Shown piece after piece: positions 825 to 45,451 of a DNA stretch of 64,000 nucleotides. The notes beneath the pieces were generated by a model, which was not told the origin of the DNA, searched no databases, and worked only from the letters and a program-made list of their open reading frames with translations. This DNA is from Streptomyces sp. NBC_01497 (GTDB lineage Bacteria > Actinomycetota > Actinomycetes > Streptomycetales > Streptomycetaceae). Location of the stretch: the NCBI RefSeq assembly GCF_036250695.1, contig NZ_CP109428.1, forward strand, positions 434,001 to 498,000, written 5' to 3'. The translations under genes and the position numbers were made by a program. Each line of letters starts with the position of its first letter. Within the stretch, counting starts at the first letter, position 1.

Positions 825-1612
825 CTCGGCCTCCTCGAAGGTGCTGGCATGCATCGTTCCTTCAGGGCATCTGCGTCGCTGGTCGCCGTATTCTTACCGA
901 CCGGGACCCTGTCCTTCCGCCTCGCTGGCAACGCCGTCGCAGGATGGGCGGCGCTTTCCTTAGGCCGCGGGGACCACCGGATATGACTGGCCTTGCGAAC
1001 GCACCGCCTCAGCCGTCTCAATGAACCACTGAGGCTGCGGCCCCGAGCAACGACAAAGCGGCGCTGGCACGGTCCAGCCACCCCAAGCCCGCTCGGGTCC
1101 GGCCCCTACATCCGCAAACAATTCTGCATCCAGTGTGAGGCCTCTCAGGCAGTAGCGCACGTAGGCGTAGCCCCAGCTCGGGTGATCGGGGGTTCGGGGC
1201 GCGACAAAACGTTGGTTAGTCGTGCGTGTACCAGCGGATTTGTGCGGTCCAGGTCCGGGTTTGTTCGACGGTCCGGCAAGTGGTCTGCGAGAGGTCCCGT
1301 TGTGCCGCTGCCCGCGTTCCAAAGACGATGCACGAGGGTGCGGGTGGTTGCCCGGCTTGCCGGAACCGGACGCGATGATCTGGCCGGAGGGAGGTCACCA
1401 CTGACAGGGCAGCGACCGGTGTCGGCAACGAGTCGGCGGTAGCCGAGGGCGAGCAGGGCCAGTTCCCGCGGCCAGGGCGCGGTTGCTGCAGACCGAGCAT
1501 CCAGGCTCAATGGAACGAGTCAGGGGCTTGGTCCAGAAGCCCCGCCACTGCCTTGTCCACCCGCCCGACCGGCGCGTGCCGCCCTCGGCTCGGACAAGCG
1601 GCAAGGACGGGC
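825..1612. other. Gap of about 790 bp without a supported gene
   Basis: Several open frames overlap on both strands but none shows a known motif or a ribosome site with consistent codon use. It lies between msrB and an IS110 remnant and probably holds old, scrambled insertion-sequence flanks. Confidence 0.4.
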
Positions 1613-2336
1613 ATGACCAGCAAGACGCATGACGGCCCGGAGCTCACCGACGGAGTCGACACCCACGGCGTGACCCACCACGCGGCCATGATCGACTCCA
1701 TCGATAGGACCTCGCCGACCGGGAGTTTCCCACCACGATCCGCGGCTACCGCGACCTGCTGGACTGGATGCGTGGCCACGGCGCACTAGTCGCGGTCGGT
1801 GTCGAGGGCACCGGCGCCTACGGGGCCGAGCTGGCCCAGGTCCTCGCGGCGGCCGGGGTCGCGGTCGTCGACGTCGACCGCTTGGACCGCAAGACCCGCC
1901 GGATGAAGGGTAAGTCCGATCCGATCGACGCCTAGGCCGACGCGACGGCCGCGCTCTCGGACGCGCCACCGGCACCCCGAAGAGCCGGGACGGCGTGGTC
2001 GAGGCGGTACGCGTGCTGCGGGTCGCACGCCGCAGCGCGGTCAAGGCCCGCACCCAAGCCATGAACCAGATTCGTGGCCTGCTCGTCTCCGCGCCCGCGA
2101 TGCTGCGCGAGCAGACCGCCGGGTTGGAGCGGGCCACACGATACGGACTCTGGCCCGGCTCCGGCCCGGTGACGACCTATTCCGTCCGCCGCCTGCCGCG
2201 CGTGCGGCCCTGCGCCGTCTGGCCCGCCGCCACCAGGCGATGGACGAGGAGGTCAACCGAGCTGGATGCCGAGCTCGGGCTGCTGACCCGGCGGGCAGCC
2301 CTGGCACTGCTGGGGACGAAGCCGGATTCTCGATGA
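1613..2336 (+). pseudogene. IS110-family transposase, N-terminal part, decayed
   Basis: Remnant of a DEDD (RuvC-like) IS110 transposase. The frame starts MTSKTHDGPELTDGVDTHG, shifts near 1702, then reads GVEGTGAYGAELAQVL and KTRRMKGKSDPIDA, hits TAG at 1933-1935, shifts again near 1955 and reads VVEAVRVLRVARRSAVKAR. These are typical IS110 N-terminal and linker motifs. Two frameshifts plus one stop make it inactive. The C-terminal Transposase_20 part is missing here; a separate IS110 C-terminal fragment lies at 4014-4385, but the two need not come from one element. Confidence 0.85.
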
Positions 2337-2445
2337 CGCCCCCGACCTCCCGCACCTGGGGCAGGCGCGGACCCACCTCGGTCATCCGGACCCGAGGCCG
2401 TTCCCAGCTCCATAGCAGCCCTGAGCTGCTACAAACCGGGTGAAC

Positions 2446-2640
2446 ACTCCCCCCTGATCTACCGTCTCGAACGGCATACCGGCCACAAGAGCCGCGGCCG
2501 CGGGAGCTTCGCCTGGACCGAGTACCGCGACCTCCTCATCGCCACCCACGAGCAGCCGGAGGGGCCCATCGTCCTCATCCGGGACAACTCAAACGTCCAC
2601 AATGACCACCATCCGGGCCCTCATCGACCCGCACGCCCGG
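2446..2640 (+). pseudogene. IS630-type DDE transposase fragment
   Basis: The frame reads SFAWTEYRDLLIATHEQ and PIVLIRDNSNVHND, which matches the region around the second catalytic aspartate of actinobacterial IS630 transposases (normally WDNLNTHVS). The expected downstream LPxYAPxLNPVE motif is missing, so only about 65 codons survive. Confidence 0.6.
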
Positions 2641-2659
2641 CCCACCCCCCACCCCGACC

Positions 2660-2753
2660 GGACCTGTACCCACGACACCACGCCCACAACGTCAGTAACA
2701 GCAGTCTCGACTACCGCAACCCCGTCGACTACGAGCCCGCATTCGCAGCCTGA
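2660..2753 (+). pseudogene. Possible IS3 OrfB C-terminal scrap
   Basis: The frame ends SLDYRNPVDYEPAFAA and then stops, like the extreme C-terminus of IS3-family OrfB proteins (LxYRxPxDFE). It is very short, so the assignment is weak. Confidence 0.3.
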
Positions 2754-3382
2754 CCAGCGCACCAAAGCTGTCCGTCACAGCGGAACAAGCTCAGACGGCC
2801 TGAACCGACCGTACGACGGCGGGCTGTGGTGTCGCCCGCTGTGTTCTCCGGGTGGCCGCATCCATCCCAACCGCCGTCGTATCCGGCGGGGCGGTGTCCC
2901 TGCCCGGCGACGCGCTTGTGCGGAAGGGCGCCGGGCTGTCCTGGGCAAGCCCCGGGTGGGCCCGGGTAAGCCCTGGGTGGTGCCGCGTAAACCAACAAGG
3001 GTTGCCCTCGCAACTTGCGGCAGCTGGCGCCGTCTGCATAGGCAGGATCCTTTGCTGGCACCCCCGCTGCCGTGCCAGGATCGCTCGATCCGGCCGCAGT
3101 AGATTCAGTCCTATAAACAACGTCATGGTTGCATTGTCGGCGGAATTGGCGGACATTCGAGCAGGAAGGAGAATTCAAGCTGATATGCCGCACGGGGAGC
3201 CCCCGTCCTCTCGCTAGAATACCCAGAATGCTCCCGTTCAGAGCAGCAAGAGGGCGACGCCTCGCGGCCGTTTACCTCCCTACATACAACCGGGTCTTCA
3301 GCGAACCGTCACAAAAGGATAAAACGCTCGACAGCTCGGACCGGACCAGTTCAGCACAGACGGCGTTGATGCAAATGAACAG
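2754..3382. other. Gap, no gene recognised; locally lower GC
   Basis: About 630 bp with no supportable coding region. The part from about 3095 to 3320 is poorer in GC than its surroundings, which suggests DNA of another origin or a non-coding spacer. Confidence 0.35.
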
Positions 3383-27659: not shown

Positions 27660-28531
27660 TGGTACTCCCACACGTTGTCGGTCTGCGCCTGGTCCAGGTC
27701 GAGTTGTACGAGCAGGCCGCGGTGGTCGGAGGCGCCCGCCGTCGGATCGAGCAGCCGGTAACGGGTGATGGCCTCGCGCAGCGGCGCGAACACCCACAGC
27801 TGATCGATCCGGTCATCGGTCCCGGTGCGCCGCAGCAGGTCCTCGTCGCCGGTGCGTTCCTAGAGCTCCCAGGCCGCGTCGACGTAGCCGGAGTAGGACA
27901 GCATCTCGGCGACGCGCCGGTCAAGGACCGGAACGGGCCCGTCGCCCGACTCGCTCGGCAGACGAGTCCTGCTCGAACGGCTGTACGGACGCATCGATGC
28001 ATAGCCGGGAGCCGGGTGACTGGGGGAGTGGGGCGGGTAGTTGATGTCGCCTCCGACGATCGCGTACGGGCCGTAGCGGTAGGCCCGCGTCGCGACCAGT
28101 TTCGCCTCGGCTCGTGCGCGGTCCGCGCTGAAGGGATCGAGGTGTGCTGGGGCGACGGCGAGCGGCGCCGGCAGTCCGAGGTCGAAGGTGGCGACGCCGA
28201 AGCCGTGCAGGCTCTGCGCGGCGAAGTCGATGTTCCAGCGGGTCCAGCGGCCCATCGTCTCGCGCCGGTAGAACAGGACCGGGGGCATGCCGGAGCTGGA
28301 CGGCGGGAGCGGGCAGGCGTCCATGTCGAGGTCGCGCATCGCGCGTGCGAGCTGTCGGTGCCCAAACGCCGACCAGCCGACAGCCTCGCACCCCAGCACC
28401 AGATCCGGCGCCACGCCCGATGCACGGATCCGTTCCACGAACAGCGGCCAACGGTCCTCCGGATCCCCGTCCCCGTTATGCAGGGCGCCCTGCTGGAAGT
28501 TCTGCACCCAGATCGAGATCGACCTCGTCAT
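27656..28531 (-). pseudogene. Endonuclease/exonuclease/phosphatase family gene with internal TAG
   Basis: From MTRSISIWVQNFQQGALHNG the frame shows EEP-type motifs: the N-terminal WVQNFQQ strand with its metal-binding Asn, FYRRETMGRWTRWN and VGGDINYPPHSP (GDxN). A TAG at 27860-27862 ends the protein after AAWEL, but the same frame continues ERTGDEDLLRRTGTDDRIDQ, LWVFAP and the catalytic SDHRGLLVQLDL to a natural stop at 27656. The truncated product lacks the SDH histidine and should be dead. An upstream GTG (VSSMAARQAKGGG) is an alternative start. Confidence 0.85.
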
Positions 28532-28742
28532 ACCACCCCCCTTCGCCTGCCGCGCCGCCATCGAGGACACCGTACGGCCAGCTGTCCGCAGCTGTGCCGT
28601 GGTGCCAGTTGCAGACGCGCGTTGCGGGCCCGGCGGGGGATCCGGGGGAGTCCATACCGGGGACGATATGGGGACCGATTGCGGCCGCGCGGGGCGACTG
28701 CGCACGATTGCGCATATTCCCCGGAGGTCTTTCGTCGTTTAC

Positions 28743-29585
28743 TCACGCCCCGTCAAGCGCGGCCTGGGCACGGCTGATCAGGCGCCGTGCGGTGGTGTCG
28801 TAGGCGGCGGAGTCGGCGAGCCACTCCCAGGCCCGTTCGTACAGGGTCACGCTGTCCTGGTCGTCCAGCCACATTTCCGCGTTGATCGTCTCCACGATGA
28901 CCAGGCGCCGGTCGTAGATCCAAGACCCGTGCGCGGGTGTGCGGCCCAGTTGGGCGCCGAGCGGGATGATGCCCAGTTCGACGGTATCGAGGCCGATCAG
29001 CGATCCTAGGCGGTCCAGTTGCTGGGCCATCACCTGCGGCGGGCACACCAGCATGTACAGGGCCGCCTCCCAGACCAGGAATCGGAAGGTCTTGCCCGGC
29101 TCGTAGAGCGCTGCTTGCCGGCGGATCCTCGCCCGCACCGCGTCCTCGATGTCCTTCGAGACACCCTGGAAGGCCGCGGCGCTGGAGAGCATCGTGCGCG
29201 CGTACTCGGGTGTCTGGAGCAGGCCCGGGATGCGCGCGGTCTCGACGCCCCGGATCATCTTCGTCGCCGCGGTCTCCACGATCGCGACCTCTTGCCGGGC
29301 CCGGTGCCCCGCAGACCGCTGCCGGCGCCACGAGCGGTACTGCGTCTCCAACCCGTTGCGGCGCGCAACGAGCTCGCCCGCGAGGTCGGTCCGGCCGACC
29401 GCGTCCGCCCAGGCCCGCAGGTCCGCCTCGGACGGCGTCTGCCGGCCGTTCTCCAGCCGGCTCACCTTCGAGCCCTGCCAGCCCAGCAGCGCGGCCAGGC
29501 TCTTGCCGTCCAGCCGTGCCTCGGTGCGCAGTTCACGCAGCCGCGCACCGAGCGCGATCCGGCCGGCCTGGTAGTCGGTGCTCAC
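28743..29585 (-). CDS. XRE-family regulator with DUF5753 domain
   Basis: 280 residues from the GTG at 29585, which overlaps the stop of the upstream gene (GTGA). HTH at about 10-65 (LAALLGWQGSKVSRLENGRQ), then the DUF5753 ligand-like domain (IPGLLQTPEYARTMLSSAAA, LVWEAALYMLV, LGIIPLGAQLGRTPAHGSW, YERAWEWLADSA). WhiJ/AbaA-type loci of Streptomyces pair such regulators with small partner proteins; here the operon is 30324-28743 with three genes. Confidence 0.94.
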   Translation of the reverse strand: MSTDYQAGRIALGARLRELRTEARLDGKSLAALLGWQGSKVSRLENGRQTPSEADLRAWADAVGRTDLAGELVARRNGLETQYRSWRRQRSAGHRARQEVAIVETAATKMIRGVETARIPGLLQTPEYARTMLSSAAAFQGVSKDIEDAVRARIRRQAALYEPGKTFRFLVWEAALYMLVCPPQVMAQQLDRLGSLIGLDTVELGIIPLGAQLGRTPAHGSWIYDRRLVIVETINAEMWLDDQDSVTLYERAWEWLADSAAYDTTARRLISRAQAALDGA

Positions 29586-30118
29586 CGCAGCGACGGTACC
29601 TGCGCCTGGAAGAGGCCGGTGGGGGCGGCGTGGTGCCAGGCGGCGTCCCGCACCTGGCACGCGGCCAGGACCTGGACAGGGTCCTCGGTGACGGTGACAC
29701 CCACGGTCCCGTCCGCGTCATCGAAGTGGAGGCGCACCAGCAGACGCGAGTCGAACAGCCAAAAGTCTTCTCGCGGCAGGTTCAACCTGTCGGCGTCCGA
29801 GCGCCACAGATTCCGGACGTCCTCGCCCGCCTGCACGTTGCCGAGCCCCGTGGCGAGGAGGTAGCGCTGGCCCTCGCTGGGCGGAGCGTCGACCACGCGG
29901 ACGCGTTCGATCCTCTTGCCCTCGCCGACCTGACGGCGCACGTTGACGGCCCAGGGCCGCCCCGCGTCGTCGGGCACCGTACCGGTGGCAAGGAAACGGG
30001 CGTACTTCTCGCTGCCCCGATCAGAGCCGTACCCGCGCCGCGTCTCCAGCCGCCAGGCCGTGTGCTCGAAATCCTCGAAGAGGTGGCCGACGTCAGCGAA
30101 CGGGATCAGATCCGGCAC
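29582..30118 (-). CDS. DUF6879 family protein
   Basis: 178 residues. MPDLIPFADVGHLFEDFEHT, LETRRGY and REDFWLFDSRLLVRLHFDDA are typical of DUF6879, a partner commonly encoded next to XRE-DUF5753 regulators. It starts three bases after the stop of the small upstream gene and overlaps the regulator downstream. Confidence 0.88.
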   Translation of the reverse strand: MPDLIPFADVGHLFEDFEHTAWRLETRRGYGSDRGSEKYARFLATGTVPDDAGRPWAVNVRRQVGEGKRIERVRVVDAPPSEGQRYLLATGLGNVQAGEDVRNLWRSDADRLNLPREDFWLFDSRLLVRLHFDDADGTVGVTVTEDPVQVLAACQVRDAAWHHAAPTGLFQAQVPSLR

Positions 30119-30120
30119 GC

Positions 30121-30324
30121 CTACTCCTTGGGGGCGAAGCGTACGAGGAGCTCTCGCGGGATGCGGACGAAGGTCTCACCGGCCTTCACGTCCCGCAGCT
30201 GGGCCAGGTGCCCGGGATCGGTCTCGACGTCTCCCTGCACCAGGATCTCGCCGGTCTCCACGACCTCGTAGAGGGTGGGGCAGTCGCCGTTCTCACTGGT
30301 CGTACCGATGAACCTCAGCGTCAT
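30121..30324 (-). CDS. Small partner protein of the WhiJ-like operon
   Basis: 67 residues, starting MTLRFIGTTSENGDCPTLYE and ending RIPRELLVRFAPKE. A small beta-rich acidic protein of the type that leads these operons. GGAGG lies upstream of the ATG. The role is unknown; family context suggests a toxin-antitoxin-like or anti-regulator function. Confidence 0.8.
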   Translation of the reverse strand: MTLRFIGTTSENGDCPTLYEVVETGEILVQGDVETDPGHLAQLRDVKAGETFVRIPRELLVRFAPKE

Positions 30325-30471
30325 GATGGCCTCCGGGCCCGGTAGGGGAGGATCCAGAATGCGCCGGACCGCTTGCACCCGGCAGGCGATTGCAGCAGAT
30401 TGCGCAAGGAGGGGCAGGGCAGGGGCCCGGGCATGACAGGACGTGCGTGCCTGGGACAGCCTTATTCACTG

Positions 30472-30519
30472 CCCTACAGTCCTCCCTACACTCTCCCCTA
30501 CAATCCTCCCTACAGTGCC
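30472..30519 (+). repeat. Four 12-bp direct repeats
   Basis: CCCTACA recurs at 30472, 30484, 30496 and 30508, exactly 12 bp apart, with consensus CCCTACA(G/A)TCCT. The array ends one base before an ATG at 30521 and lies between divergent genes. Such spacing points to a cooperative protein-binding array. Confidence 0.85.
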
Positions 30520-30520
30520 T

Positions 30521-31231
30521 ATGCTCGACGTCCGGGCGTTGACGCAGTGGTCCGCTGCCGCGGACAGGATCAGTCATCCGCCGCTTGCTCTGGTCTTCGC
30601 CAAGGACGTCACCGCCACGGTCCTCGAGCGCCGTATCGCTACGGTCCGGGACCTCTCCCGAGCCTGCTGGTCCGCCCCGTGGACCAGCTACCAGGGCTTC
30701 GGGGCCGGGGGCGCGCGGGAGGACGACGGATGGCGCGAGTACGAGGACGTCATCCTGGTCATCACCACCACCCTCGCCCAGCTGCAGAAGCACGGCCCAC
30801 ACGGAGAGGTCTGGACACGCTTCGGCCGCTCCCAGCCCCAGTCCCTCACCAACGCGCTCGCCCCCCGCAACACCCACGAGGACTACATGGCGCGGAATGA
30901 GCGCCCTCAGGCCGCGAGACGTCCCCTGCCGGGTCAAGGCGGTAGCCCCCAGGGGATGCCAGCAGCGGATCCGCGGGCGGCTCCGGAGGCAGACCCATGG
31001 GCGGACGGCCTCCGACCTGGAAATGCCCCTCGTGCGGCACTGCGACCTCCACTGTGGCGCCGGGATTGGACGGCTACGCTCCCGAGTCGGGCGGCCGGTG
31101 CCCGCGCTGCGAACAGCTCCACCGCGAGCTCACCCGGAGCCGCACACAGGCCGGCGTCCTGGCGCGCTTGCGGGCACGCGCGGAGGGACGTCACCCAGCC
31201 TCCCCAGAAGCCTGAGATGACGGCGCGTTGA
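30521..31231 (+). CDS. Unknown protein downstream of the 12-bp array
   Basis: Starts MLDVRALTQWSAAADRISHP and continues to EYEDVILVITTTLAQLQKHG, PHGEVWTRFGRSQPQSLTNA, LAPRNTHEDYMARNE. This core recurs as a fragment at 56545-56748 (GPHGPTWTRFGRSRPEPLTV), so it is a real family, though I cannot name it. The C-terminal half after about 30900 becomes low-complexity and overlaps another frame, so a frameshift or an earlier true end is likely. No Shine-Dalgarno is visible because the repeat array abuts the start. Confidence 0.5.
   Translation: MLDVRALTQWSAAADRISHPPLALVFAKDVTATVLERRIATVRDLSRACWSAPWTSYQGFGAGGAREDDGWREYEDVILVITTTLAQLQKHGPHGEVWTRFGRSQPQSLTNALAPRNTHEDYMARNERPQAARRPLPGQGGSPQGMPAADPRAAPEADPWADGLRPGNAPRAALRPPLWRRDWTATLPSRAAGARAANSSTASSPGAAHRPASWRACGHARRDVTQPPQKPEMTAR
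30997..31215 (+). CDS. Possible small zinc-ribbon protein
   Basis: 72 residues in an overlapping frame: WKCPSCGTATSTVAPGLDGY and GRCPRCEQLHRELTRSRTQA. Two CPxC knuckles suggest zinc binding. It competes with the tail of the 30521 frame; only one is likely real. Confidence 0.4.
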   Translation: MGGRPPTWKCPSCGTATSTVAPGLDGYAPESGGRCPRCEQLHRELTRSRTQAGVLARLRARAEGRHPASPEA

Positions 31232-31486
31232 GAGTTCAGTGCCGGCCGGAGGCGCAGTCTGAGGTCGCGTCACCGGCCGGCGAGTGCCCTTTCCGGGGTG
31301 CGCACGCGTGAAGCGATCCGGTGGGGCGTTTCCGAGTGTGCCGTACCGCGGGATGATCGCGTGAACGGGCGCGTCACTAAAGCCGCGCGTTGTCTTCAGA
31401 CCAGGAGAACCAACGCCGACAGACGAAATCTTCGCCGAGCCGGCATCGGTGATCCGCATGACGCATGTTGCGATATGGGCCGGCCG
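31232..31486. other. Spacer
   Basis: No gene seen. Confidence 0.35.
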
Positions 31487-31657
31487 TCATACGGCAGCCG
31501 GCTGCGGCAGTTCCAGCACCCCGGCGATCTTCCGTGCGAGCGCCGCTACGTGGGGTGGCAGATAGCTCTCCAGTGCGTCGACGTCGTCACACAGCCGGGC
31601 GCGCAGCGCGTGCAGACATGCCTCGGTGAACAGCCTCTGCTCATCGGGCTCGGACAT
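31487..31657 (-). CDS. Possible small helical protein
   Basis: 56 residues MSEPDEQRLFTEACLHALRA to LARKIAGVLELPQPAAV, preceded by an AAGGCGG site. Helical and acidic at the start. No family recognised. Confidence 0.4.
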   Translation of the reverse strand: MSEPDEQRLFTEACLHALRARLCDDVDALESYLPPHVAALARKIAGVLELPQPAAV

Positions 31658-32171
31658 CAGTCCGCCTTCCGCACACCCCTGGCCCATCGAGAAACCGCAT
31701 CTGCGCGTCCCGACCGTCCTCGGGGGAAGCGGCGTGCCGAGCATCCCGGCGACCGCCTGCCGGTCCGAATCCCTTGGGCCGGCCGCCCGGCTGCGCTGCT
31801 GCCGGGTCTGGAGGTACGAGGCGAGGGTGTCCAGGGCCAGCCTGAGTGTCGTCCCGTGCACGCGTGGGACGACGAAGGTGAGCCGCTGGTGCTGTGGAAG
31901 AAGGAACATGGGACGGCCCTGACCCTTTCCCAGTCCTTCCGCTTCGGCCCTCGCCTCGCCGACGAAGTCAACGGGTGGCTCGCCATCGTCGACGCGTCCG
32001 GCGTCGCGCCGCGACCCTGGGCATGGGCCGAACGGGTCCATCTGAGCCGGTCTGTGGGGGTGGGCCGCTGCGATCGCGATCTTGCCTGGCCCGCCGGGTT
32101 ATGGTCCGCGTGGAAACGCTCCCTGAGGCAGTTCCTGCTGCTCCCGCTGGTGTGCTTGGAGGCTCGCAGGT
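31658..32171. other. Region upstream of the ion-channel gene
   Basis: Contains the helicase scrap at 31858-31998 and the ribosome site for 32172. No other gene seen. Confidence 0.4.
31858..31998 (+). pseudogene. UvrD-like helicase fragment
   Basis: Reads LWKKEHGTALTLSQSFRFGP and RLADEVNGWLAIVDASG. The LTLxQSxRFGPxLAxxAN motif is characteristic of motif IV/V surroundings in UvrD/Rep superfamily 1 helicases. Neither the Walker motifs nor the C-terminus are present. Confidence 0.45.
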
Positions 32172-33212
32172 ATGCCCCGTTCGTACTGCGGGCCGGCGGA
32201 CGGGCGACGTGACTTCCTGGCGGGGCTCCGGTCGCGAGCGGGCGCCCTGCTCGCAGTGGCCGCTGCGGTGCTGAGCTCGTTGGTCATCACCACGCCCGCC
32301 GCTGCGGCCGTGCCCAGTTGCAGCGTCGGGGCTTACGTCACCGACCTCTACGCGGTGGATCCGATCAGGGGCACCGTGAACGCGGACCTGTGGCTGTGGA
32401 GCGTATGTCCACGCAAGGACCTTGCCGCTGTCCAGCGTCTCGAATTCACCAACGCGACGAAGACCATGTTGACAGCGCCTTCCAGCGAGAAGGTGGACGA
32501 CGAGTACTGGACTCAGGTCAAAGTGTCCGGGACCTTCCGGCAGGCCCTGGACCTGACGGACTTCCCGTTCGACAAACAGGTCATCCGGATCCAAGTTGAG
32601 GAAAACAAGCTGGACAAGTCGCGATTCGTCTACCGGGCGGATGTGAAGAACTCCACGTACAACCCCAGGATCCATCCCGCCGACTTCAAGATCACGCAAT
32701 TCCGGATCGGTGTCGGGGACGCGCCCTACAGGACGAACTTCGGCGATCCCCGGCTCGAACAAGGAGGAAGCAGCCGCTACTCCCAGCTGATGATCGAGTT
32801 CCAGCTCACCCGAGAGGGCATCACAAGTTTCGGCAAGCAGATCCTGCCAGTATACGTGGCTTTCCTGGTCGCCCTGATCTCGTTTCTGATCTGGTCGAAG
32901 GACAACGAGGTCGCCATGGTCGCGCGGCTCGGGATCCTCGGCACCGCGCTTTTCACGATCATGCTCAACTTGCGGGCAGTCGACGAGGCGCTGGGCACCT
33001 TCCTGAACGTGACGCTGGTCGAAGAGATCCACTTCATGAGCCTGCTCTACGTACTGATCGGTGTCGCCAACACCGCCTACGTCATGAAGCTGCTGACCGA
33101 TCCCATGGTCCAACCGGCAGCACGGCGCTTCAACAAGCGCATTTTCGCCATCGCGACGGGCCTGTACGTCATCGCCAACATCGTCGTCATCTCCCTCACC
33201 GTGTCGTTCTGA
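32172..33212 (+). CDS. Pentameric ligand-gated ion channel homologue
   Basis: 346 residues; GGAGG lies nine bases before the ATG. A signal peptide (about 1-46) precedes a 175-residue extracellular beta domain with AYVTDLYAVD near its start, the WLWS segment, and DLTDFPFDKQVIRIQVEE (127-144), the FPFDxQ Pro-loop of the Cys-loop superfamily without the flanking cysteines. Four membrane helices follow: M1 222-241 with Pro226, pore-lining M2 about 245-268 (MVARLGILGTALFTIMLNLR), M3 283-305 and M4 323-345 at the C-terminus. This matches bacterial GLIC/ELIC-type channels. Ligand unknown. It stands alone, with no channel partner needed. Confidence 0.9.
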   Translation: MPRSYCGPADGRRDFLAGLRSRAGALLAVAAAVLSSLVITTPAAAAVPSCSVGAYVTDLYAVDPIRGTVNADLWLWSVCPRKDLAAVQRLEFTNATKTMLTAPSSEKVDDEYWTQVKVSGTFRQALDLTDFPFDKQVIRIQVEENKLDKSRFVYRADVKNSTYNPRIHPADFKITQFRIGVGDAPYRTNFGDPRLEQGGSSRYSQLMIEFQLTREGITSFGKQILPVYVAFLVALISFLIWSKDNEVAMVARLGILGTALFTIMLNLRAVDEALGTFLNVTLVEEIHFMSLLYVLIGVANTAYVMKLLTDPMVQPAARRFNKRIFAIATGLYVIANIVVISLTVSF

Positions 33213-33218
33213 GTCCGT

Positions 33219-33856
33219 GCACTGCTCGGCGGGCACACCAGCTGGGAGGCGTACTGCCGGGCGGAGCCCGGCATCTCCCGCGCGCAGGCCTACCTGCTCC
33301 TGGACGTCGCCCGCGCCCTGGCTGCGATCCACGACGCGGTGGCCCGCTCCGAGGCGTCTCGCACGCGAGACACCGACTCGGCCACCGCGGCTGTGCTCGA
33401 CTTCGGCCTGTCCCAGCGCGCCCCGGTCGCCGTGGCCGGCCTCACGGAAACCGTCGCGGATCTGATCACCCGTCGTCCCGCCACGCTCGTCGGCAGCGGC
33501 CTGCGCGGCCTCGATGCGCCCGCAGTCCGCGCGGTGGTCCGCCAAGCCGTCCGCGACACCCACACCGCCCCGCCCCGCCGCCCGCCGAAGGGCCGGCCGA
33601 TGCGACCCTCGCCGCACTGCACCGCACGGTCGACGACCTCACTTCGGGCAGCCACCCGATCGGGGAGCTGCTTCTCGAAGTCGCGCCGGCCTACCTGTCC
33701 GATGCCGACGCGGCCCACACGCTCGCCCCACTGTGCGAAGAGATCGGCGAAGAGCTTGACCACGGCCTCGCCGCCCGCCGCTACGCCATGACCGGCGACC
33801 GCCGCGCCCTACACGGCACCGTCCTGTATGAACGCCTCGCTCACAGGCAGGCCTGA
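33219..33856 (+). pseudogene. HTH-like regulator gene, truncated and frameshifted
   Basis: Begins mid-protein right after the channel stop: TSWEAYCRAEPGISRAQAYL, LLDVARALAAIHDAVA, then LDFGLSQRAPVAVAGLTETV. After a frameshift near 33590 it continues LAALHRTVDDLTSGSHPIGE and YLSDADAAHTLAPLCEEIGE to the stop at 33856. The WExYCxxxxGISRAQAYRLLDVA block is a plasmid-type HTH seen in Streptomyces. The 5' end is missing. Confidence 0.7.
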
Positions 33857-33938
33857 TCACGGCCATTCCTGTGTGCCTTTTTGGCCGTTGTGCTGGAATC
33901 GTCCGCGCGGTCGGAGGTCTGGCCGTCGCTATCCGTGC

Positions 33939-34154
33939 GTGCTGAAGTCTCCCGGACGCCTCGTCCTCACCGCCGTCGCTGCACTGACCGCCCTCTCCCT
34001 CACCAGTTGCAGCACGGACTCACCGCCGCAGCAGTCCACCCGGCTTCAAAAGGCCGCGGGTCTCAACGCCAAGATCGACGCTGTGAAGAAAAGGCTGAGC
34101 CCGAGCGACCCGCCGCTACGGATTGTGGTGGACACCGCCTTCACTCAGCGCTGA
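33939..34154 (+). CDS. Small lipoprotein
   Basis: 71 residues from the GTG at 33939. LKSPGRLVLTAVAALTALSL then the lipobox LTSC, so Cys24 would be lipidated. The short mature chain (STDSPPQQSTRLQKAAGLNA, KIDAVKKRLSPSDPPLRIVV) is mostly charged. Unknown role. A strong hairpin follows at 34182. Confidence 0.7.
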   Translation: MLKSPGRLVLTAVAALTALSLTSCSTDSPPQQSTRLQKAAGLNAKIDAVKKRLSPSDPPLRIVVDTAFTQR

Positions 34155-34181
34155 ACCACCCGGCTCTTCCCTTGCGGGAGC

Positions 34182-34225
34182 GGCCGACCCCTCAGCCCAC
34201 CCACCGGCGGGCTGAGGGGTCGGCC
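34182..34225. terminator. 17-bp hairpin between convergent genes
   Basis: GGCCGACCCCTCAGCCC (34182-34198) and its exact complement at 34209-34225 with a 10-nt loop. It lies between the rightward lipoprotein gene and the leftward gene ending at 34289, so it may terminate both. Confidence 0.85.
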
Positions 34226-34288
34226 GGCCGAAAGCTCGACAGATGTCTGCCCGTCATGCAATCGAGGCTGGCGTTCGGACGGCCACTG

Positions 34289-34903
34289 TCACTGGACGTG
34301 GTTGGTCTCGATGCTGTCGTCGATCCGGAACGTGATGCCCGTCGTCTTGCCGGCTTCGGCGTCTGGATCAACGAGATCGACGAAGTCCACGAGCTTCCTG
34401 TAGAGCCGATTGCTACAAGCGGATGTGGTCGCATCGTCCACTACTGACCCCGCCTGCAACGAAACGAGCAGCTGGGCCAGATTGTGACCGGAAAGGATCA
34501 CCTTCTGCATGCCATTCTGGCGTCCGCCCTCTGTCAGCTTGGTGATCCTCCCGTCCGGAAGGTTTGGGTTCTGTGTGAACTTGTCCTCGTAAGTTGGACA
34601 GCGGGTTCCGGTAATTGAGCGGGTGACGCTGTCAGTCCAGGTCGGCTTCCAGGTGCCGAACGCGAGGATTGCCATGAAGGTCCACGTGTCCTCATGGCAG
34701 ACCAAGGTCAGATAGGAGACGCCAGTGGCCACCTTGAGGTTCTCGTTGTGCACTGCAAGGTCGACGGCGTTGTCTGCGAGGGCTTTCTCGCGTGCCGCCC
34801 AGTCCTCTTCCAGCCAGTGCTTCTCTTGCTGCCAACGGTCAAGAGCGATCTGCCGCTCCAGCGCCTTGCCCGCCCGGTACTCCTCGCGCTATGTCTTGAG
34901 CAT
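34289..34903 (-). pseudogene. Unknown gene with a stop at codon 5
   Basis: With GGGGAGAG upstream, an ATG at 34903 starts MLKT, then TAG (34889-34891), then the frame stays open for 200 codons: REEYRAGKALERQIALDRWQ, LKVATGVSYLTLVCHEDTWT, GGRQNGMQKVILSGHNLAQL, VDFVDLVDPDAEAGKTTGIT. A functional protein would need an internal start such as the ATG at 34753. No domain recognised; the amphipathic N-terminal helix is rich in charged residues. Confidence 0.65.
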
Positions 34904-35223
34904 CCACTCTCCCCATCACTGAAAGTGCAAAGAGTATGCCTGTCCGTGTCCAGGGTCGGTAGTGCACCCTAAGCCGGAGGCAGGCGCGATCGGCTCTGTA
35001 GGGCGCCCACCTGCAGGGGCGGGCCGCTCGTCGACAACTTAAGTGGCCGGCACCCTCAGTCCGCCCGAAGGCGGGTGACGCGGGTGCCGGCCGACCCAAG
35101 ACACCACCCCAAGGGGCGTGTGCTCGCCCCGCAGGTTGTCGCCCCCCGGCCGGTAGGTGAACCTGTAGTGTTGTTTTCTCGACACGTTTTCCGGTGGAGT
35201 GCCGGACGCGGGAGGCCCTGAAA
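34904..35223. promoter_or_regulatory. Divergent intergenic region with a compound hairpin
   Basis: About 320 bp between divergent genes. It must hold promoters for both sides, and the hairpin at 35045-35092. Confidence 0.5.
35045..35092 (+). terminator. Two-tier hairpin in a leader region
   Basis: Outer stem GGCCGGCACCC/GGGTGCCGGCC (35045-35055, 35082-35092) encloses an inner CCGCC-CGAA-GGCGG stem-loop. It sits about 130 nt upstream of the gene at 35224, so it may be an attenuator, a structured leader, or a terminator left from a lost gene. Confidence 0.55.
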
Positions 35224-36231
35224 ATGATCCGTGCCGGACGCCGGCACCTGGTGCGCACTCTGGCCGACATCGCCGCGCAGCAGGACGTTGCTCTACAGAC
35301 CCTGCTCAACACCCGCCAGCACCAGGCGGAGGGCTTCCCCGCGCCGTTGAACGCGGGCCGCACCCGGCTCTACGACGGAGAGCAGATTGACGCGTTCCTG
35401 GCCAGGCGCCCGGTGCCGCCGCTGCCGGCGAGCGATGAGGAGGAGGACCTCCTGGACCGTCAGGAGGCCGCCGCGCTGCGCGGGGTGGAGCCGTACCAGT
35501 GGGACACCCGCAAGAAGAACCCGGCCGTGGCCGAGCACCTGGTCCTCATCCATGGTGTCGAGCACTGGCCCCGCCACGTCGTACGCGACCACACCCCCAC
35601 GCCGCGACGGCACGCCGGTGGGGGCGGGGGTGGCCGGCCCACCGGCGCAGGCGACCAGGTCCCGCGCGATCAACTGCACGCGCGCGTCGCGCAGCTCCTG
35701 GACGACGACCCCCACCTCACCGCGGCCGGCGTCACCGACAGGCTCGGCGTGCACCGCAACACCGCCCAGAGCGCGCTGACTCAGCTCCGCGCGGAACGCA
35801 TGGCCGACCGCATGCAGGAGCGCGAGCTGAATACCGCGCAGGCCGCCACAGACCTCGGCTACCCGCCCGGCCTGACCCGCCGCGCCGCCGTGCGAGCCGA
35901 GGCGGTCCTGCGCGGCCGCCAGGTGCTGCCGTACCTCGCCGACGTCGCCCAGGCGCTCCACACGCAAGGGTGGACGTCGTCCGGCACCGCGCCGGCCGTT
36001 CAGTACCCCGACAACGTCTGCGTCGCGGTGCTCGTGCTGGATGCGCCCGCGGCGCCGGCCCCGGCCTTGGCGTGGTCCGAGCAGCACGGCTGGCGCACCG
36101 CGACCTCCCGCCGCCACCCCCTCGGACGGGGCGCAGCACGGCCCCCGCCCGGCGACGGCGTATGCCACCTCGCCACCGGCATCACCCCCGCCCCCGCCGC
36201 CCTCGTCCAGGCGCTGTACACCACCGGCTGA
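35224..36231 (+). CDS. DUF6292-like protein with HTH N-terminus
   Basis: 335 residues; GGAGG precedes the ATG at 35224 by eight bases. The N-terminus (MIRAGRRHLVRTLADIAAQQ, ALQTLLNTRQHQAEGFPAPL) resembles an excisionase-type HTH; a second HTH-like block is LDDDPHLTAAGVTDRLGVHR. The C-terminal 110 residues (VLPYLADVAQALHTQGWTSS, ALAWSEQHGWRTATSRRHPL) match DUF6292, a small domain common on Streptomyces plasmids and integrative elements. Probably a DNA-binding regulator or replication accessory; the function is not known. Confidence 0.75.
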   Translation: MIRAGRRHLVRTLADIAAQQDVALQTLLNTRQHQAEGFPAPLNAGRTRLYDGEQIDAFLARRPVPPLPASDEEEDLLDRQEAAALRGVEPYQWDTRKKNPAVAEHLVLIHGVEHWPRHVVRDHTPTPRRHAGGGGGGRPTGAGDQVPRDQLHARVAQLLDDDPHLTAAGVTDRLGVHRNTAQSALTQLRAERMADRMQERELNTAQAATDLGYPPGLTRRAAVRAEAVLRGRQVLPYLADVAQALHTQGWTSSGTAPAVQYPDNVCVAVLVLDAPAAPAPALAWSEQHGWRTATSRRHPLGRGAARPPPGDGVCHLATGITPAPAALVQALYTTG

Positions 36232-36581
36232 CCCAACCCGCCCCACCGCGCACCGCCTGGGCCCCCAGGACCCCCTGGGGGCCCGCGGCATGCCCGCACC
36301 AGCACACCCGGGACCCCAGGGCGCGCCGGAAGGCCAACACGGCGCAGGGCCGCGACCGGGCGGGGCGCAGCAGCGGGCAGGGCGCGGACCGCCCCGTCGA
36401 AGTGAAGTTCCCTCAGCGGGGAGCGGCCGCGCCGGGGCCTGGCCGCTCCATATGGGTTGACCTGCGTAAACGTTCCCTCATAGGTAGATCAGTAAGCAAG
36501 TTAGAGATGCACTTGTCTTATTGGTCGATAGCAACATCCGACCAACACCCAAGACCACCAACGCACTTGAAGGGGATACCC
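36232..36581. promoter_or_regulatory. Intergenic region with terminator and promoter candidate
   Basis: Contains the hairpin at 36420-36449 and, right after it, TTGACC (36457-36462) followed 18 bp later by TAGGTA, a possible sigma-70 type promoter for the 36582 gene. AT content rises sharply from 36455 to 36560. Confidence 0.5.
36420..36449 (+). terminator. Hairpin terminator
   Basis: GGA GCGGCC (36420-36428) pairs with GGCCGCTCC (36441-36449), a 9-bp stem with a 12-nt loop, downstream of the 35224 gene and just before a promoter-like sequence. Confidence 0.65.
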
Positions 36582-36893
36582 ATGCTCGCAACCAACCTCG
36601 CCCTCGTCATCCGCCCCGACGCCACGTTCGACGTCATCGACTGGCCCGCCGACGGCGCCACCCTGCGCACCCTCTACACCGCGCTCAACTGCGACTACGT
36701 CGACATGGTCGACGTATCCCCCGAGCTGTCCATGTGGCTGGACGACAGCGGAATCACCATCGGATCCCCCGTCAACATCCCCGCCACCAACCACCGAGGC
36801 GACACCATCGGCCTCACTCGCGAACAGTGCGACATGGTCCTCGGAATCATCGGAATCGAAACCCCGACCATCCCGCACCAGCACACCAAGTAA
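36582..36893 (+). CDS. DUF3846 family protein
   Basis: 103 residues, AAGGGGA six bases before the ATG. MLATNLALVIRPDATFDVID and LRTLYTALNCDYVDMVDVSP followed by SMWLDDSG and DTIGLTREQCDMVLGIIG fit DUF3846, small proteins of plasmids and phages with unknown role. GC is lower than average. Confidence 0.85.
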   Translation: MLATNLALVIRPDATFDVIDWPADGATLRTLYTALNCDYVDMVDVSPELSMWLDDSGITIGSPVNIPATNHRGDTIGLTREQCDMVLGIIGIETPTIPHQHTK

Positions 36894-37084
36894 CTCCCCA
36901 ATCCCCGGCGGCCGGGGAGACGAACTCCCCCGACCGCCCGGCCGCCACACGCCCCCAGCGCCTCACAGCGGCCCGTCGGATGAACTCTCCGGTCCCCTTC
37001 TCCCCGCGCGCCAACAGCCCGAGTCGAGCCGCCCCATGGGCCCGCTCCTCGCCCCCGCGCCCCTCACACGCCCAAGGAACCCCT

Positions 37085-37707: not shown

Positions 37708-38021
37708 GGTCCGAGCAGCAGAAGTACGACGCCGAGTTTCGTGAGGGTGCTGTACGCATCGTGATCGAGACGGGCAAGCCGATCCCGGAGGTCGCCGAAG
37801 ACCCGGGTGCTCATCCGGGGATGCTGCCCGCTGGGTCTCGCGCTGGAGGAGGAATGGATCGGCCTCCTCGGACCGGCCCGCGCCCGCCGCTTCGGGCGGC
37901 CGACTGCGGGAAGGCGAACGCGCTGAGCTGGAGCGGTTGCATCGCGAGATGGGTGAAAGGAACGCGAGCTGGAGATGGGGCGTGATGTCTTCAAACAGTG
38001 CATGGCCTTGTGGGTGAAGTA
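37705..38021 (+). pseudogene. IS3 OrfA, decayed
   Basis: GSEQQKYDAEFREGAVRIVI and ETGKPIPEVAEDPGAHPGML are OrfA-like, then ELERLHREMG and MGRDVFKQCMALWVK in other frames. The start codon appears mutated (ATAGGG) and at least one frameshift occurs. Confidence 0.8.
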
Positions 38022-38915
38022 GCTGCCGCGGACCCGGCCCGGCTGGCCGGGGTGATCAGCGGCTGCAAGGCCGGGCAGAACATTCCGCACGCCGTGTCCT
38101 GCCGCGTGCTGGGCGTGCGCCAGTCGCGGTTCTACAAGTGGAAGGACAAGCCTGTCACCGCCCGCGAGGTGCGGCGAGGACAGCTGGCCGACGCCATCCG
38201 GCGCGTCTTCGACGCCTCGGGCGGCACCCACGGCTCACCGAAAGCGTGGATCACGCTCGCCCGGGAGGGATGGCGCATCTCGGTGAACACCGTCGCGAAG
38301 ACCATGGCAGAGCTCGGTCTGGCCGGACGGAAGGTCCGCCGACGCCGCGGTCTCACCCGCCCGGGCCGGCGGGCCGCGGCACCGGACTTCGTGCGCTACG
38401 ACGCCCCGGACCAGGTAGGGGCCGGCGACATGACCGAGATCGTCACAAGTGAGGGCAACCTGTACCTCGCCACGGTGATCGATGTGTTCTCAGGTCGTCT
38501 GCTCGGCTACGCGATGGGTGCCCATCGCGATGCCGAACTCGTCCTGGCCTCAATGCACATGGCCGCCGCCACCCGCGGCGGAGACGTGAAAGGCGTGATC
38601 TTTCACAGCAGAGGCAGCGAGTACGTCTCCCGCCACTTCAAGCGGGCCTGCCGGAAACTCGGCGTGACCCAGTCCATGGGACGCGTCGGGTCGTGCTTCG
38701 ACAACGCCGTCAGCCAGGCGTTCAACAGCGTACTCAAGGTCGAGTACGTCCACCGGCGCACCTTCGCCACCCGCACCGAAGCCCGGCTGAAGATCACCAC
38801 ATGGATCACCGGCTCCTACAACACCCGCCGACTACACGGCGTATGCGGATACCGCAGCCCAATCGACTACGAAAACAATCACCAGACCGGCTCCGACCTT
38901 GAGCTGGCCGCATAG
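37998..38915 (+). CDS. IS3 OrfB with altered catalytic residues
   Basis: 305 residues in one frame, starting within OrfA. The HTH_21/rve layout is present (RQSRFYKWKDKP, DQVGAGDMTEIVTSEGNLYL with the first Asp). The second Asp position reads FHSRGSEYVS instead of HSDRGSEY, and the Glu position reads DNAVSQAFNSVLKVEY with Gln instead of Glu. Two of three DDE residues therefore look lost, so the enzyme is very likely dead although its frame is open. Confidence 0.85.
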   Translation: MHGLVGEVAAADPARLAGVISGCKAGQNIPHAVSCRVLGVRQSRFYKWKDKPVTAREVRRGQLADAIRRVFDASGGTHGSPKAWITLAREGWRISVNTVAKTMAELGLAGRKVRRRRGLTRPGRRAAAPDFVRYDAPDQVGAGDMTEIVTSEGNLYLATVIDVFSGRLLGYAMGAHRDAELVLASMHMAAATRGGDVKGVIFHSRGSEYVSRHFKRACRKLGVTQSMGRVGSCFDNAVSQAFNSVLKVEYVHRRTFATRTEARLKITTWITGSYNTRRLHGVCGYRSPIDYENNHQTGSDLELAA

Positions 38916-40696: not shown

Positions 40697-42326
40697 GCTC
40701 TGTTCCGTAGTCGGTGGTAACGGCAGGTGACAGGTGTCGTTGACCTGGTATGCGCGATGTCAACTCCCTTGTGGCAATGGTGTTTTCAGGGCTCTCGGCA
40801 CTGGTCATCGAAGACGTGGCAGATGACGGCGAGGTGATCCGGGTCATCGCCCGGACCCGGGATGTTCCGGTGCCCTGCCCCGTGTGCGGGGTGCCGACGG
40901 GGAAGGTGCATGCACGAGTATCACGCCCGGACGGTGGCGGATGTGCCGGTGGACGGTCGGCAGGTCGTGGCCAGCGTCCGGGTGCGACGCCTGGTCTGCC
41001 CGGTCCTGGGCTGCCGGCGGCAGACCTTCCGCGAGCAAGTCCCTGGGCTGATCGAGCGCCTTCAACGTCGCACCATGCGTCTGACCAGCCAAGTCTCGAA
41101 GGTAGTCAAGGAGTTATGTGGCCGGGCGGCCTCCCGTCTCGCCCGGTTCCTGGCCACGCCCCTCTCCTACGCCACCGCCCTGCGCCTGCTGCGGCGCATC
41201 CCCCCACCGACGGTGCGGATCCCGAGGGTGATCGGGGTCGACGACTTCGCCCTGCGCCGCCGCCACCGCTACGCCACGATCATCATCGACGCCGAGACCG
41301 GGGAACGCGTCGACGTCCTGCCCGACCGCGAGGCCGCCACCTTGGAGGCATGGCTGCGCGGGAAGAAAGGGGTGGAGGTCGTGTGCCGGGACGGCTCGGC
41401 CACCTACGCCGAGGCGATCCGCCGGGCACTGCCCGACGCGGTGCAGGTCAGCGACCGCTGGCACCTGTGGCGCAACCTGTGCGACAAGATTCTGGCCGGA
41501 GTCCGCGCCCACGCCCCTTGCTGGGCCACCGTCAATCCGCCCCGGCCCGGCGGGGTACGCGAGCAGACCACCCGCGAGCGCTGGCACACAGTCCACGCCC
41601 TTCTCGACTCCGGCGTCGGCCTGCTCGAATGCGCCCGCAGACTGAACCTCGCCCTGAACACCGTCAAGCGCTACGCCCGCATCCCTGAACCGTCCGCCGA
41701 TCGCATCGCCCCACGCTACCGGCCTACCGTGGTTGATCCCTACCGCGACCACCTGCGTCAACGACGGGCGGAAGACCCGACCGTCCCCGTCACCCACCTC
41801 CTCCACGAGATCCGGGAACTGGGCTACACCGGCAGTGCCAACCTGCTGGTCCGCTACCTCAACCAGGGCCGCGCCGAAGGCGACCGCCCCGTGACAACCC
41901 CACGCCGAGTCGCCCGGCTTCTGCTCACCCACCCCGAGCACCTGTCGACCAAGGACACCGACCTGCTCGGACTCCTCACCGCTGCCTGCCCGGAGATGAC
42001 CGCGCTCGCCCGACTCACCGGCGAGTTCGCCGCTCTCCTGACCCCGGCCCAGGCCAACGACAACAAGCTCACCCAGTGGATCACCACCGTCCGCACCGTC
42101 GACCTGCCCCACCTGCACAGCTTCTGCAACGGCCTCGAACTCGACCGCGCCGCCGTGAACGCCGGCCTCACCCTGCCCCACCACAACGGCCGGACCGAGG
42201 GCGTCAACACCCACACCAAGCGGATCATGCGGCAGATGCACGGCCGTGCCGGATTCGAACTCCTCCGCTACCGCATCTTGCTCAGCGCATAGGCATGCAA
42301 CGTCACCACCGACTACGGAACAGAGC
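40697..42326 (+). mobile_element. ISL3-family element, defective
   Basis: Inverted repeats GCTCTGTTCCGTAGTCGGTG at 40697 and, inverted, at 42326, extending to about 27 bp. No 8-bp target duplication is visible, so one flank may have been rearranged. The transposase inside is frameshifted. Confidence 0.85.
40750..42292 (+). pseudogene. ISL3-family transposase with a +1 frameshift
   Basis: The first frame gives FSGLSALVIEDVADDGEVIR and CPVCGVPTGKVH; one extra base between 40912 and 40918 moves the rest to the next frame: EYHARTVADVPVDGRQVVAS, RLVCPVLGCRRQTFREQVPG, IGVDDFALRRRHRYATIIID, VCRDGSATYAEAIRRALPDA, SDRWHLWRNL and HNGRTEGVNTHTKRIMRQMH. All DDE residues are present. A programmed shift cannot be excluded, but no slippery run is seen. 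Confidence 0.9.
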
Positions 42327-44542: not shown

Positions 44543-45451
44543 TCAGTCGCGGTGGGCCTCGCGGGAGGCCGGCTGTCCGCTCATGCGGGAGATGCGGCGG
44601 GTAATTCGCCTGGTCATCAGCGTGATCGTGGCCCAGGTGATGAGCGATTCCGAGTGTTGGACGAGCCGTTCGTAGTCGCGCGCGTGTCGACGGGCGTGCA
44701 TGACCCAGGTGTGTGAGCGTTCGACGACCCAGCGTCGGGGCAGGACGACGAACCCGGGGACGTCCTTCGGGCGGCTGACGGTCTTGATCGTCAGGCTCAG
44801 GTAGGCCTTTGCCCAGGTCACGAGCTGTCCGGCATAGGCGGAGTCTGCCCAGACGATGGTGATCTCGGGGTGCATCAGCCGCAGCCGGAGCAGCACTTCC
44901 TTGGCCGCGTTGCGGTCGGTCATGTCGGCCGGGGTGACCATGACGAACAGCGGCAGGCCTTTGGTGTCCACGACCAGGTGCCGCTTGCGGCCGTTGATTT
45001 TCTTGCCGGCGTCGTAGCCGCGGGAGTCGTTGCCGACGGTGTCGGCGGCCTTGATCGATTGGGAGTCGATGACGGTGGCGACCGCCCCGGGCGCCTTCCC
45101 CATCTCGCGGCGAATCCGCTTGCGGAGCTGGTCACGGATCTGCCCGATGACGCCGGCGGTTGCCCAGCGGGCCATGAACCCGTAACACGTGCGCCAGGGC
45201 GGGAAGTCCTTGGGCAGTGCCCTCCACTTGCATCCGGTGTCGACGACGTAGCGGATCGCGTCGACCACCTCCCGGCGCGAGTGCTTCTCTGGGCGGCCCC
45301 CGGCCGGGGTCTCGCAGGCCGGTGTCGGCAGCAGCGGTTCGAGCAGGGCCCACTCGTCGTCCCAGGTGTCGGAGGGGGTAGCAGCGCCTGCGCGGCAACG
45401 TTCCCTCCTTGGAAGACGGGGTGGGCCCGGCCGCGAAGGGACCGGGCCCAC
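44543..45451 (-). CDS. IS5-family transposase
   Basis: About 300 codons open; the conserved part begins TPSDTWDDEWALLEPLLPTP. DDE motifs: VATVIDSQSIKAADTVGNDS (Asp), TIVWADSAYAGQLVTWAKAY (Asp), RRWVVERSHTWVMHARRHARD (Glu). The first 25 codons up to 45451 overlap a terminator and read poorly, so the natural start may be missing or nearer 45391. A 35-codon scrap of the same transposase lies at 26926. Confidence 0.85.
   Translation of the reverse strand: MGPVPSRPGPPRLPRRERCRAGAATPSDTWDDEWALLEPLLPTPACETPAGGRPEKHSRREVVDAIRYVVDTGCKWRALPKDFPPWRTCYGFMARWATAGVIGQIRDQLRKRIRREMGKAPGAVATVIDSQSIKAADTVGNDSRGYDAGKKINGRKRHLVVDTKGLPLFVMVTPADMTDRNAAKEVLLRLRLMHPEITIVWADSAYAGQLVTWAKAYLSLTIKTVSRPKDVPGFVVLPRRWVVERSHTWVMHARRHARDYERLVQHSESLITWATITLMTRRITRRISRMSGQPASREAHRD

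Follow-up and report, generated by a model that had tools for sequence, protein, structure and literature searches.

Among the closest described relatives of the gene reported here are two prokaryotic pentameric ligand-gated ion channels (pLGICs): GLIC, the proton-gated channel of Gloeobacter violaceus, and ELIC, from Erwinia/Dickeya. Jaiteh et al. (PMC4795631) state that no biological role had been established as of 2016 for any pLGIC of a unicellular organism, the role of GLIC being obscure largely owing to its hard-to-grow host, and Tasneem et al. (PMC549065) propose a chemoreceptor role for the bacterial forms. We analysed a stretch of 64,000 nucleotides from Streptomyces sp. NBC_01497 (contig NZ_CP109428.1, positions 434,001 to 498,000; hereafter the window), in which an intact plus-strand reading frame, with an ATG start and zero internal stops, encodes a protein of 346 residues (P0001, hereafter the query; coordinates are collected in Table 1). 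With a probability of roughly 0.78, we read the product of this gene as the subunit of a ligand-gated channel that is homopentameric and belongs to the Cys-less (Pro-loop) type of prokaryotes; pentamer formation, gating and conduction would be shared with the superfamily by analogy. Among the papers listed in our searches of the open-access literature, none is on a Streptomyces or actinobacterial pLGIC, and the terms "actinobacter" and "streptomyces" are absent from the main text of PMC4795631 (a statement that covers neither its Figure 1 nor its supplements); actinobacterial pLGICs may already be in print.

Assignment to the superfamily

A full-length profile of the family matches known pLGIC structures with E values of about 1e-11 to 2e-15; it matches the ELIC-named 8twv (Erwinia chrysanthemi ligand-gated ion channel) at 2.8e-11 and 2yks, which we take to be ELIC, at 3.6e-12. 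Searched against the PDB as a single sequence, the query matched GLIC chains (best E 0.02). The predicted single-subunit model consists of a beta-rich domain (strands between residues 49 and 214) followed by the four helices delimited in Table 1, and predicted models compared with known structures show a beta-sandwich extracellular domain (ECD) plus four transmembrane helices in the pLGIC arrangement. A first-pass annotation of the sequence had proposed a GLIC/ELIC-type channel and a structural comparison with GLIC and ELIC; that assignment is supported by the profile matches and, at the level of a model, by the predicted fold.

Using the superfamily features given in section 7 of PMC4795631, we find in the query the [F/Y]PxD tip of the beta6-beta7 loop, the Arg preceding M1, the M1 Pro and the aromatic residue of strand beta9. 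The last is Phe172 in the query and Phe, Trp or Tyr in 36, 22 and 2 of 60 rows, respectively; conservation counts here and below refer to 60 of 64 distinct rows, with locus L037 and three proteins fused to a periplasmic binding protein (PBP) domain left out. Gly191 is present in all 60. Hydropathy shows one N-terminal hydrophobic stretch and four further ones, and the cysteines are at positions 6, 50 and 79 only, with none in or near the FPFD loop. The earlier description of a signal peptide, a beta domain, a Cys-less FPFD loop and four helices with a Pro in M1 thus stands on sequence, hydropathy and model; the description of M2 as polar was overstated, since this helix is mostly apolar with a few polar or charged sites (R0', T6', N14', R16', D19', E20'). 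That description was silent on the pore signature, the Cys50/Cys79 pair, the shortened N-terminal domain and the mobile unit discussed below. Cys50 and Cys79 occur together in 54/60 rows, are both missing in 6/60 and are never found singly (0/60). A disulfide between them is likely, because the pair co-varies and, judged by residue count, would sit close together across the modelled beta1-beta2 hairpin (strands 49-63 and 68-79).

The matches listed include 42 homologues besides the query. Alignment A1 holds 42 of 43 proteins from the homologue search (the partial P0014 was left out), A2 and A3 hold 19 of 20 rows tried (L024 is a duplicate), and A4 holds 32 of 51 among proteins P0001 and P0003-P0052. 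In a midpoint-rooted tree, whose long deep branches we do not rely on, the query groups in clade A; the Streptomyces radiation to which this clade belongs comprises several clades of paralogues. The tree has 66 rows, namely 39 of the 42 in A1 (the partial or odd P0030, P0031 and P0041 omitted) and 27 locus rows; it leaves out L028, L029, L051, L056 and several weaker loci from the class scan, and it contains same-organism duplicates (L026/L057, L024/L052, P0006/L040). The suggested survey of orthologues in other Streptomyces yielded intact copies in seven other loci. Together with the significant profile and fold matches, these homologues and orthologues speak against a chance resemblance. We regard the family as a new, uncurated subfamily of a known superfamily.

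Differences from known channels

Identity to GLIC is 17-20%. Compared with GLIC, the query has some 18 residues fewer from strand beta2 to the part that follows loop A (4x5t 43-76 versus profile 62-77); it also has the Cys50/Cys79 pair, carries Phe rather than Ile at 9' (the latter according to the titles of mutant structures), has Gly in place of the M2-M3 Pro and has no acid at -1' or -2'. The animal anion channels (glycine, GABA-A and GluCl receptors) are 13-16% identical to the query, which differs from them in its missing Cys-loop cysteines, its short M3-M4 loop and a 6' Thr that is not constant in its subfamily; the query has no Cys at the sites of the animal-type disulfide across the beta6-beta7 loop.

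The WxP motif is absent from the query (Trp occurs only at 74, 76, 113 and 241), where the corresponding stretch is an alignment gap relative to loop A of GLIC. According to Tasneem et al. (PMC549065), the hWxP motif before strand beta4 is common to the animal forms and to only a subset of bacterial ones, including those of the GLIC and ELIC hosts; like the prokaryotic pLGICs described there without it, the query has no WxP before its "EFTNA" stretch, and unlike some of those, which carry a PBP-I fusion, it lacks any additional N-terminal domain. The family profile does match PBP-fused relatives from other actinomycetes; the three fused proteins examined have neither the Cys pair nor the M3 His of the query. 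Three fusions of PF13458 to a pLGIC-like module, 736-889 residues long, are at L033 1261-3471(-), L059 7702-10269(-) and L055 3834-6503(+), the last from the genus of the window; PF02932 scored under its cut-off in all three.

Evidence against the assignment, and constraint

Several results weigh against the channel reading. The whole query has no match to PF02931 or PF02932 in Pfam at E<=1, its ECD alone reaches only E 0.094 with PF02931 (12.6 bits; gathering cut-off 26), and TIGR00860 scores 20.5 bits against a cut-off of 280.2. A profile restricted to the transmembrane domain (TMD) finds no PDB match at E<=1, so that support for the pore domain comes from the full-length profiles together with the predicted fold. 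Position 275 in the M2-M3 loop is Gly (Gly 48, Thr 7, Pro 3 and others 2 of 60 rows), and no neighbouring gene in the loci examined names a ligand. Constraint is weak: ratios of nonsynonymous to synonymous substitution rates (dN/dS) within clade A range from 0.35 to 1.16 by NG86 (28 pairs), mostly above those of three neighbouring genes, and from 0.17 to 0.63 by YN00. Finally, a more distant copy in Streptomyces virginiae (L029 8001-8830, on the contig of L051) is broken into two pieces in different frames.

The curated models fare somewhat better with other members. PF02931 matches 8 of 42 at E<=0.1 (best 0.0037) and 5 of 19 ECDs (best 8e-5); at E<=0.01, NF033918 (LGIC_1) matches 10 and TIGR00860 (LIC) 7 of 32, the query matching only TIGR00860, far under its cut-off. 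Pfam, NCBIfam and PADLOC make no curated call on the query. The first-pass annotation had named the lack of a match to neurotransmitter-gated channel models as grounds for abandoning its assignment; for the single sequence in Pfam that lack is literally what we see, and it is overridden by the profile and fold comparisons. As to the M2-M3 loop, a table in PMC4795631 gives Pro in 88% and Gly in 3% of pLGICs. Gly275 is a marker of divergence rather than of exclusion from the superfamily, in which this Pro is not invariant.

The high dN/dS, the unmatched TMD-only profile, the Gly at the M2-M3 Pro and the broken S. virginiae copy would all suit a receptor that has kept the pLGIC shape but ceased to conduct, or a gene drifting toward loss as the constraint on it relaxes. 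We think this unlikely: the frame is open in 8/8 clade-A loci examined, the least variable regions are M2-M3, M2 and the Pro-loop region, as expected for a gated pore, and the wider family keeps Phe at 9' in 60/60 and Arg214 in 58/60 rows. For comparison, dN/dS of neighbouring genes is 0.06-0.42 (NG86, nine pairs, three genes), values that, like those for the channel, are rough owing to a strong GC bias at third codon positions, YN00 having given no value for 7 of the 9 neighbour pairs. The claim that the gene is still in use is favoured, indirectly, by the intact frames and conserved M2 and disfavoured by a constraint weaker than that on three neighbouring genes. About 42 residues are unmatched between the two pieces of the S. 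virginiae copy.

Pore sequence and ion selectivity

M2 prime numbers were transferred from an alignment to the glycine-receptor M2 in 4x5t, to which the query aligns gap-free as A-1' R0' G2' T6'. The 0' position is Arg or Lys in 57/60 rows, -1' is Ala in 34/60, as in the query, and 2' is Gly in 50/60; 6' is Thr in 14, Ala in 30 and Gly in 14, and the relative P0050 has TPARLGVLG in the same region. With A-[R/K] at -1'/0' and no Glu at -1', the query shows the pattern that Tasneem et al. read as anion-type (PMC549065). Judged from A-1', R0', G2' and the missing acid at -1', the pore may be of the anion type, a proposal that we make tentatively and at somewhat less than even odds.

A cation- or proton-gated channel working like GLIC or ELIC, in which the 0' Arg is irrelevant to selectivity, is a possible alternative, at less than even odds. 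The prokaryotic pLGICs characterised so far are, to our knowledge, cation channels, and the single-sequence PDB matches of the query are GLIC chains. ELIC has Arg at 0' like the query, within a cation-type Glu-Arg motif where the query has Ala-Arg. Jaiteh et al. also consider the residues before M2 insufficient to predict selectivity in prokaryotes (PMC4795631). The pore residues speak against this alternative: an acid at -1' occurs in 0/60 rows, Glu or Asp at -2' in only 5/60 (Val in the query), and the pore His that a paper title places at 11' in GLIC corresponds to Ile263 in the query, the conserved His of the family being in M3 (59/60).

Genomic context and transfer

On sequence comparison, the channel gene seems to be an accessory gene spread between strains by DNA transfer, nearly on its own. 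In a blastn comparison of window positions 28000-37000 with 14 chosen loci, each of the seven clade-A loci yielded a single piece of 1.21-1.23 kb at 89.0-92.1% identity, comprising the channel gene, 157-171 bp upstream of it and 3-22 bases past its stop codon (L022 holds little sequence upstream of the unit). Among the loci outside clade A, L024 and L052 (same contig) gave a partial match at 65%, L042 gave 62 bp at 77%, and the other four gave no match. Some clade-A pairs do match beyond the unit, L019, L020 and L021 having a common aconitase-side flank. The unit is reversed in L020 (7782-9176) relative to L019 (7781-9183) and L021, seemingly at the same site beside aconitase; this looks like the same place, with either an inversion or an independent insertion.

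In the window, matches to a left-hand fragment of 80-odd bp end at 31995-31999; two plasmid records have this fragment entirely within a UvrD-helicase gene. To the right of the unit, a gene known from plasmids resumes near 33221-33230 but lacks its initial 176-182 bp (two records examined). Transposase genes of the rve, ISL3 and IS4/5 types lie nearby (37998-38915(+), 40862-42292(+) and 44543-45451(-), respectively). The first-pass picture of an intact gene with a good ribosome-binding site amid decayed neighbours agrees with all of this, and with the 346-codon open frame and the GGAGG 9 nt upstream of it. Inspection of the aligned borders, by eye only, revealed no terminal inverted repeats or common unit end, and since the borders vary by partner we do not claim a transposon-like cassette.

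Synonymous divergence (dS, NG86) between L019 and L020 is 0.039 for the channel and 0.145, 0.341 and 0.319 for three neighbouring genes; in the other two pairs of the L019/L020/L021 group it is 0.112 and 0.106, against 0.222-0.584 for the neighbours. Because channel dS lies below that of the neighbouring genes, horizontal transfer is supported in this group. For the window copy, transfer is suggested by its foreign flanks and by its GC content of 61.9%, against 67.3% for the window. Recent acquisition, as proposed earlier, is accordingly supported by the low GC, the common unit in differing flanks and the low dS in relatives.

The near-solitary unit, its shifting contexts and its fast amino-acid change might also suit a membrane effector encoded by one mobile gene, for instance a pore for abortive infection or competition, with a borrowed pLGIC fold; the query has a match to the RexB Pfam family, non-significant at E 0.91. 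We consider this highly improbable: PADLOC has no match at E<=1, a phage collection gave 0 matches, none of 35 pattern matches in viral contigs was confirmed, and blastn finds that the window has nothing but the unit in common with the other seven loci of clade A.

The gene occupies positions 466172-467212 of a 528,823-bp contig, its end about 61.6 kb from the right end. We take this contig to be a linear plasmid-like replicon, because its two ends match as inverted repeats (1-3000 versus 525824-528823, L053 and L054; 99.8% identical over all 3 kb compared). The ends contain short palindromes, like Streptomyces linear plasmids.

Distribution

Family profile matches occur in 13/295 genomes of the genus and 11/394 of the class, so that rarity in actinobacteria, as first noted, holds in these samples; the genome of the window itself is counted in both, three further Streptomyces belong to the class set, and the weakest class match (E 8.7e-5) is doubtful. 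Seven of the 11 class matches lie outside the genus, and Pfam scans of two of these (G413, G527) show proteins with a PBP fusion. A pattern scan of 84,980 genomes gave 11 confirmed loci, 9 from Streptomycetaceae and one each from a Caulobacterales and an Okeania metagenome-assembled genome. Nine plasmid records match, eight of them from Azospirillum (24-27%) and the ninth a linear plasmid of Streptomyces (48%). A PF02931 search of 296 genomes of the phylum gave 0 matches, but 0/14 control genomes matched too, so that this zero carries no information.

Possible function and ligand

By analogy, the subunits would assemble as a homopentamer with the secreted beta domain toward the cell-wall space, where a small molecule or protons would bind between or within subunits. 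The resulting movement would be transmitted via the Pro-loop (with a salt bridge between Asp134 and Arg214) and the beta1-beta2 and M2-M3 loops to a hydrophobic gate centred on Phe261 (9'), which would open. The most likely use would be to sense an outside metabolite through a change of membrane potential. Since Streptomyces are non-motile, a role in chemotaxis is unlikely in this genus. On plasmid pAB510b of Azospirillum sp. B510 (L091 5773-11821(+)), a relative with 27% identity is encoded 19 bp upstream of a CheW-like gene, which is followed on the same strand by genes for a methyl-accepting chemotaxis protein and a mechanosensitive channel, as if in one operon.

A paralogue in clade E adjoins a gamma-glutamyltranspeptidase gene in 5/7 loci, with a carbon-nitrogen hydrolase and an amidohydrolase nearby (Pfam, one locus); in L045, L047, L048, L050 and L058 the paralogous channel starts about 45-80 bp after the transpeptidase gene. 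An amino-acid ligand such as beta-alanine, at which these neighbours might hint, was not adopted: gamma-glutamyltranspeptidase is present in 96/101 genomes of the genus, and of 30 of its loci examined, 1 has a channel. Because the transpeptidase and hydrolase also occur as a pair without a channel (L061 and L062, about 200 bp apart), the clade-E channel would have been inserted into, or lost from, a block that already existed. Clade-A loci examined show no clustering with the clade-E neighbour genes.

Feature coordinates and neighbouring genes

Table 1. Positions in the window of the channel gene, its encoded features and the flanking fragments.
Feature	Coordinates	Strand	Basis or remarks
pLGIC-superfamily channel subunit gene (P0001), 346 residues	32172..33212	+	ORF, profile match, model, fold comparison
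Ribosome-binding site GGAGG	32158..32162	+	9 nt before ATG; kept in 8/8 aligned clade-A loci
Predicted signal peptide, residues 1-46	32172..32309	+	Basic start, hydrophobic core, AAA-type end; sequence and hydropathy
Extracellular beta domain, residues 47-215	32310..32816	+	Model; GLIC matched by a profile of the ECD alone, E 1.4e-7
Cys50 codon in strand beta1; putative disulfide with Cys79	32319..32321	+	Cys pair co-occurrence, 60 rows
Cys79 codon, end of strand beta2	32406..32408	+	Cys pair co-occurrence, 60 rows
Pro-loop FPFD, residues 131-134	32562..32573	+	Pro132 60/60, Phe133 60/60, Asp134 59/60
Pre-M1 Arg214, expected salt-bridge partner of Asp134	32811..32813	+	58/60 rows; superfamily table in PMC4795631 (excerpt)
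M1 helix, 218-239, kink Pro226	32823..32888	+	Model; Pro 51/60 rows
M2 pore helix, 245-274	32904..32993	+	Model; A251 -1', R252 0', G254 2', T258 6', F261 9', L265 13', R268 16'
M3 helix, 282-307, His287 in 59/60 rows	33015..33092	+	Model, 60-row alignment
M4 helix, 311-345	33102..33206	+	Model
Unit common to differing genomic contexts	32001..33231	+	Aligned borders left 32001-32015, right 33215-33234, by partner
Fragment left of unit	31910..31996		Matches inside UvrD-helicase genes in two plasmid records examined, elsewhere often near chromosome ends
Gene fragment right of unit	33230..33828	+	Matches Streptomyces plasmid hypothetical gene, in many rows near plasmid end

A promoter scan of positions 31900-33500 found no sigma-70 promoter, and the only terminator-like site, against 0.8 expected, falls within the channel gene on the minus strand. 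At 28743-30378(-), genes for an HTH_31/DUF5753 regulator and a DUF6879 protein and a small reading frame of 85 residues lie in series, a common set in Streptomyces.

Implications

Four points are unusual in this family, although each is modest by itself: a pore of anion-like sequence, a pair of Cys that co-vary, an absent M2-M3 Pro and a near-solitary mobile gene. A more ambitious reading, likewise at less than even odds, is that the protein founds a prokaryotic class of pentameric channels selective for anions, whose gene moves among Streptomyces as a unit of its own; if so, a chloride-channel pore like that of animals would have arisen, or persisted, in bacteria and would be traded between strains. 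Because the query stays below the cut-offs of the widely used models PF02931, PF02932 and TIGR00860, counts of bacterial pLGICs that rely on them may be low. An anion-type pore would bear on the origin of the animal anion and cation branches, and a subfamily in Streptomyces, whose genes can be deleted and moved, would open the role of a bacterial pLGIC to experiment.
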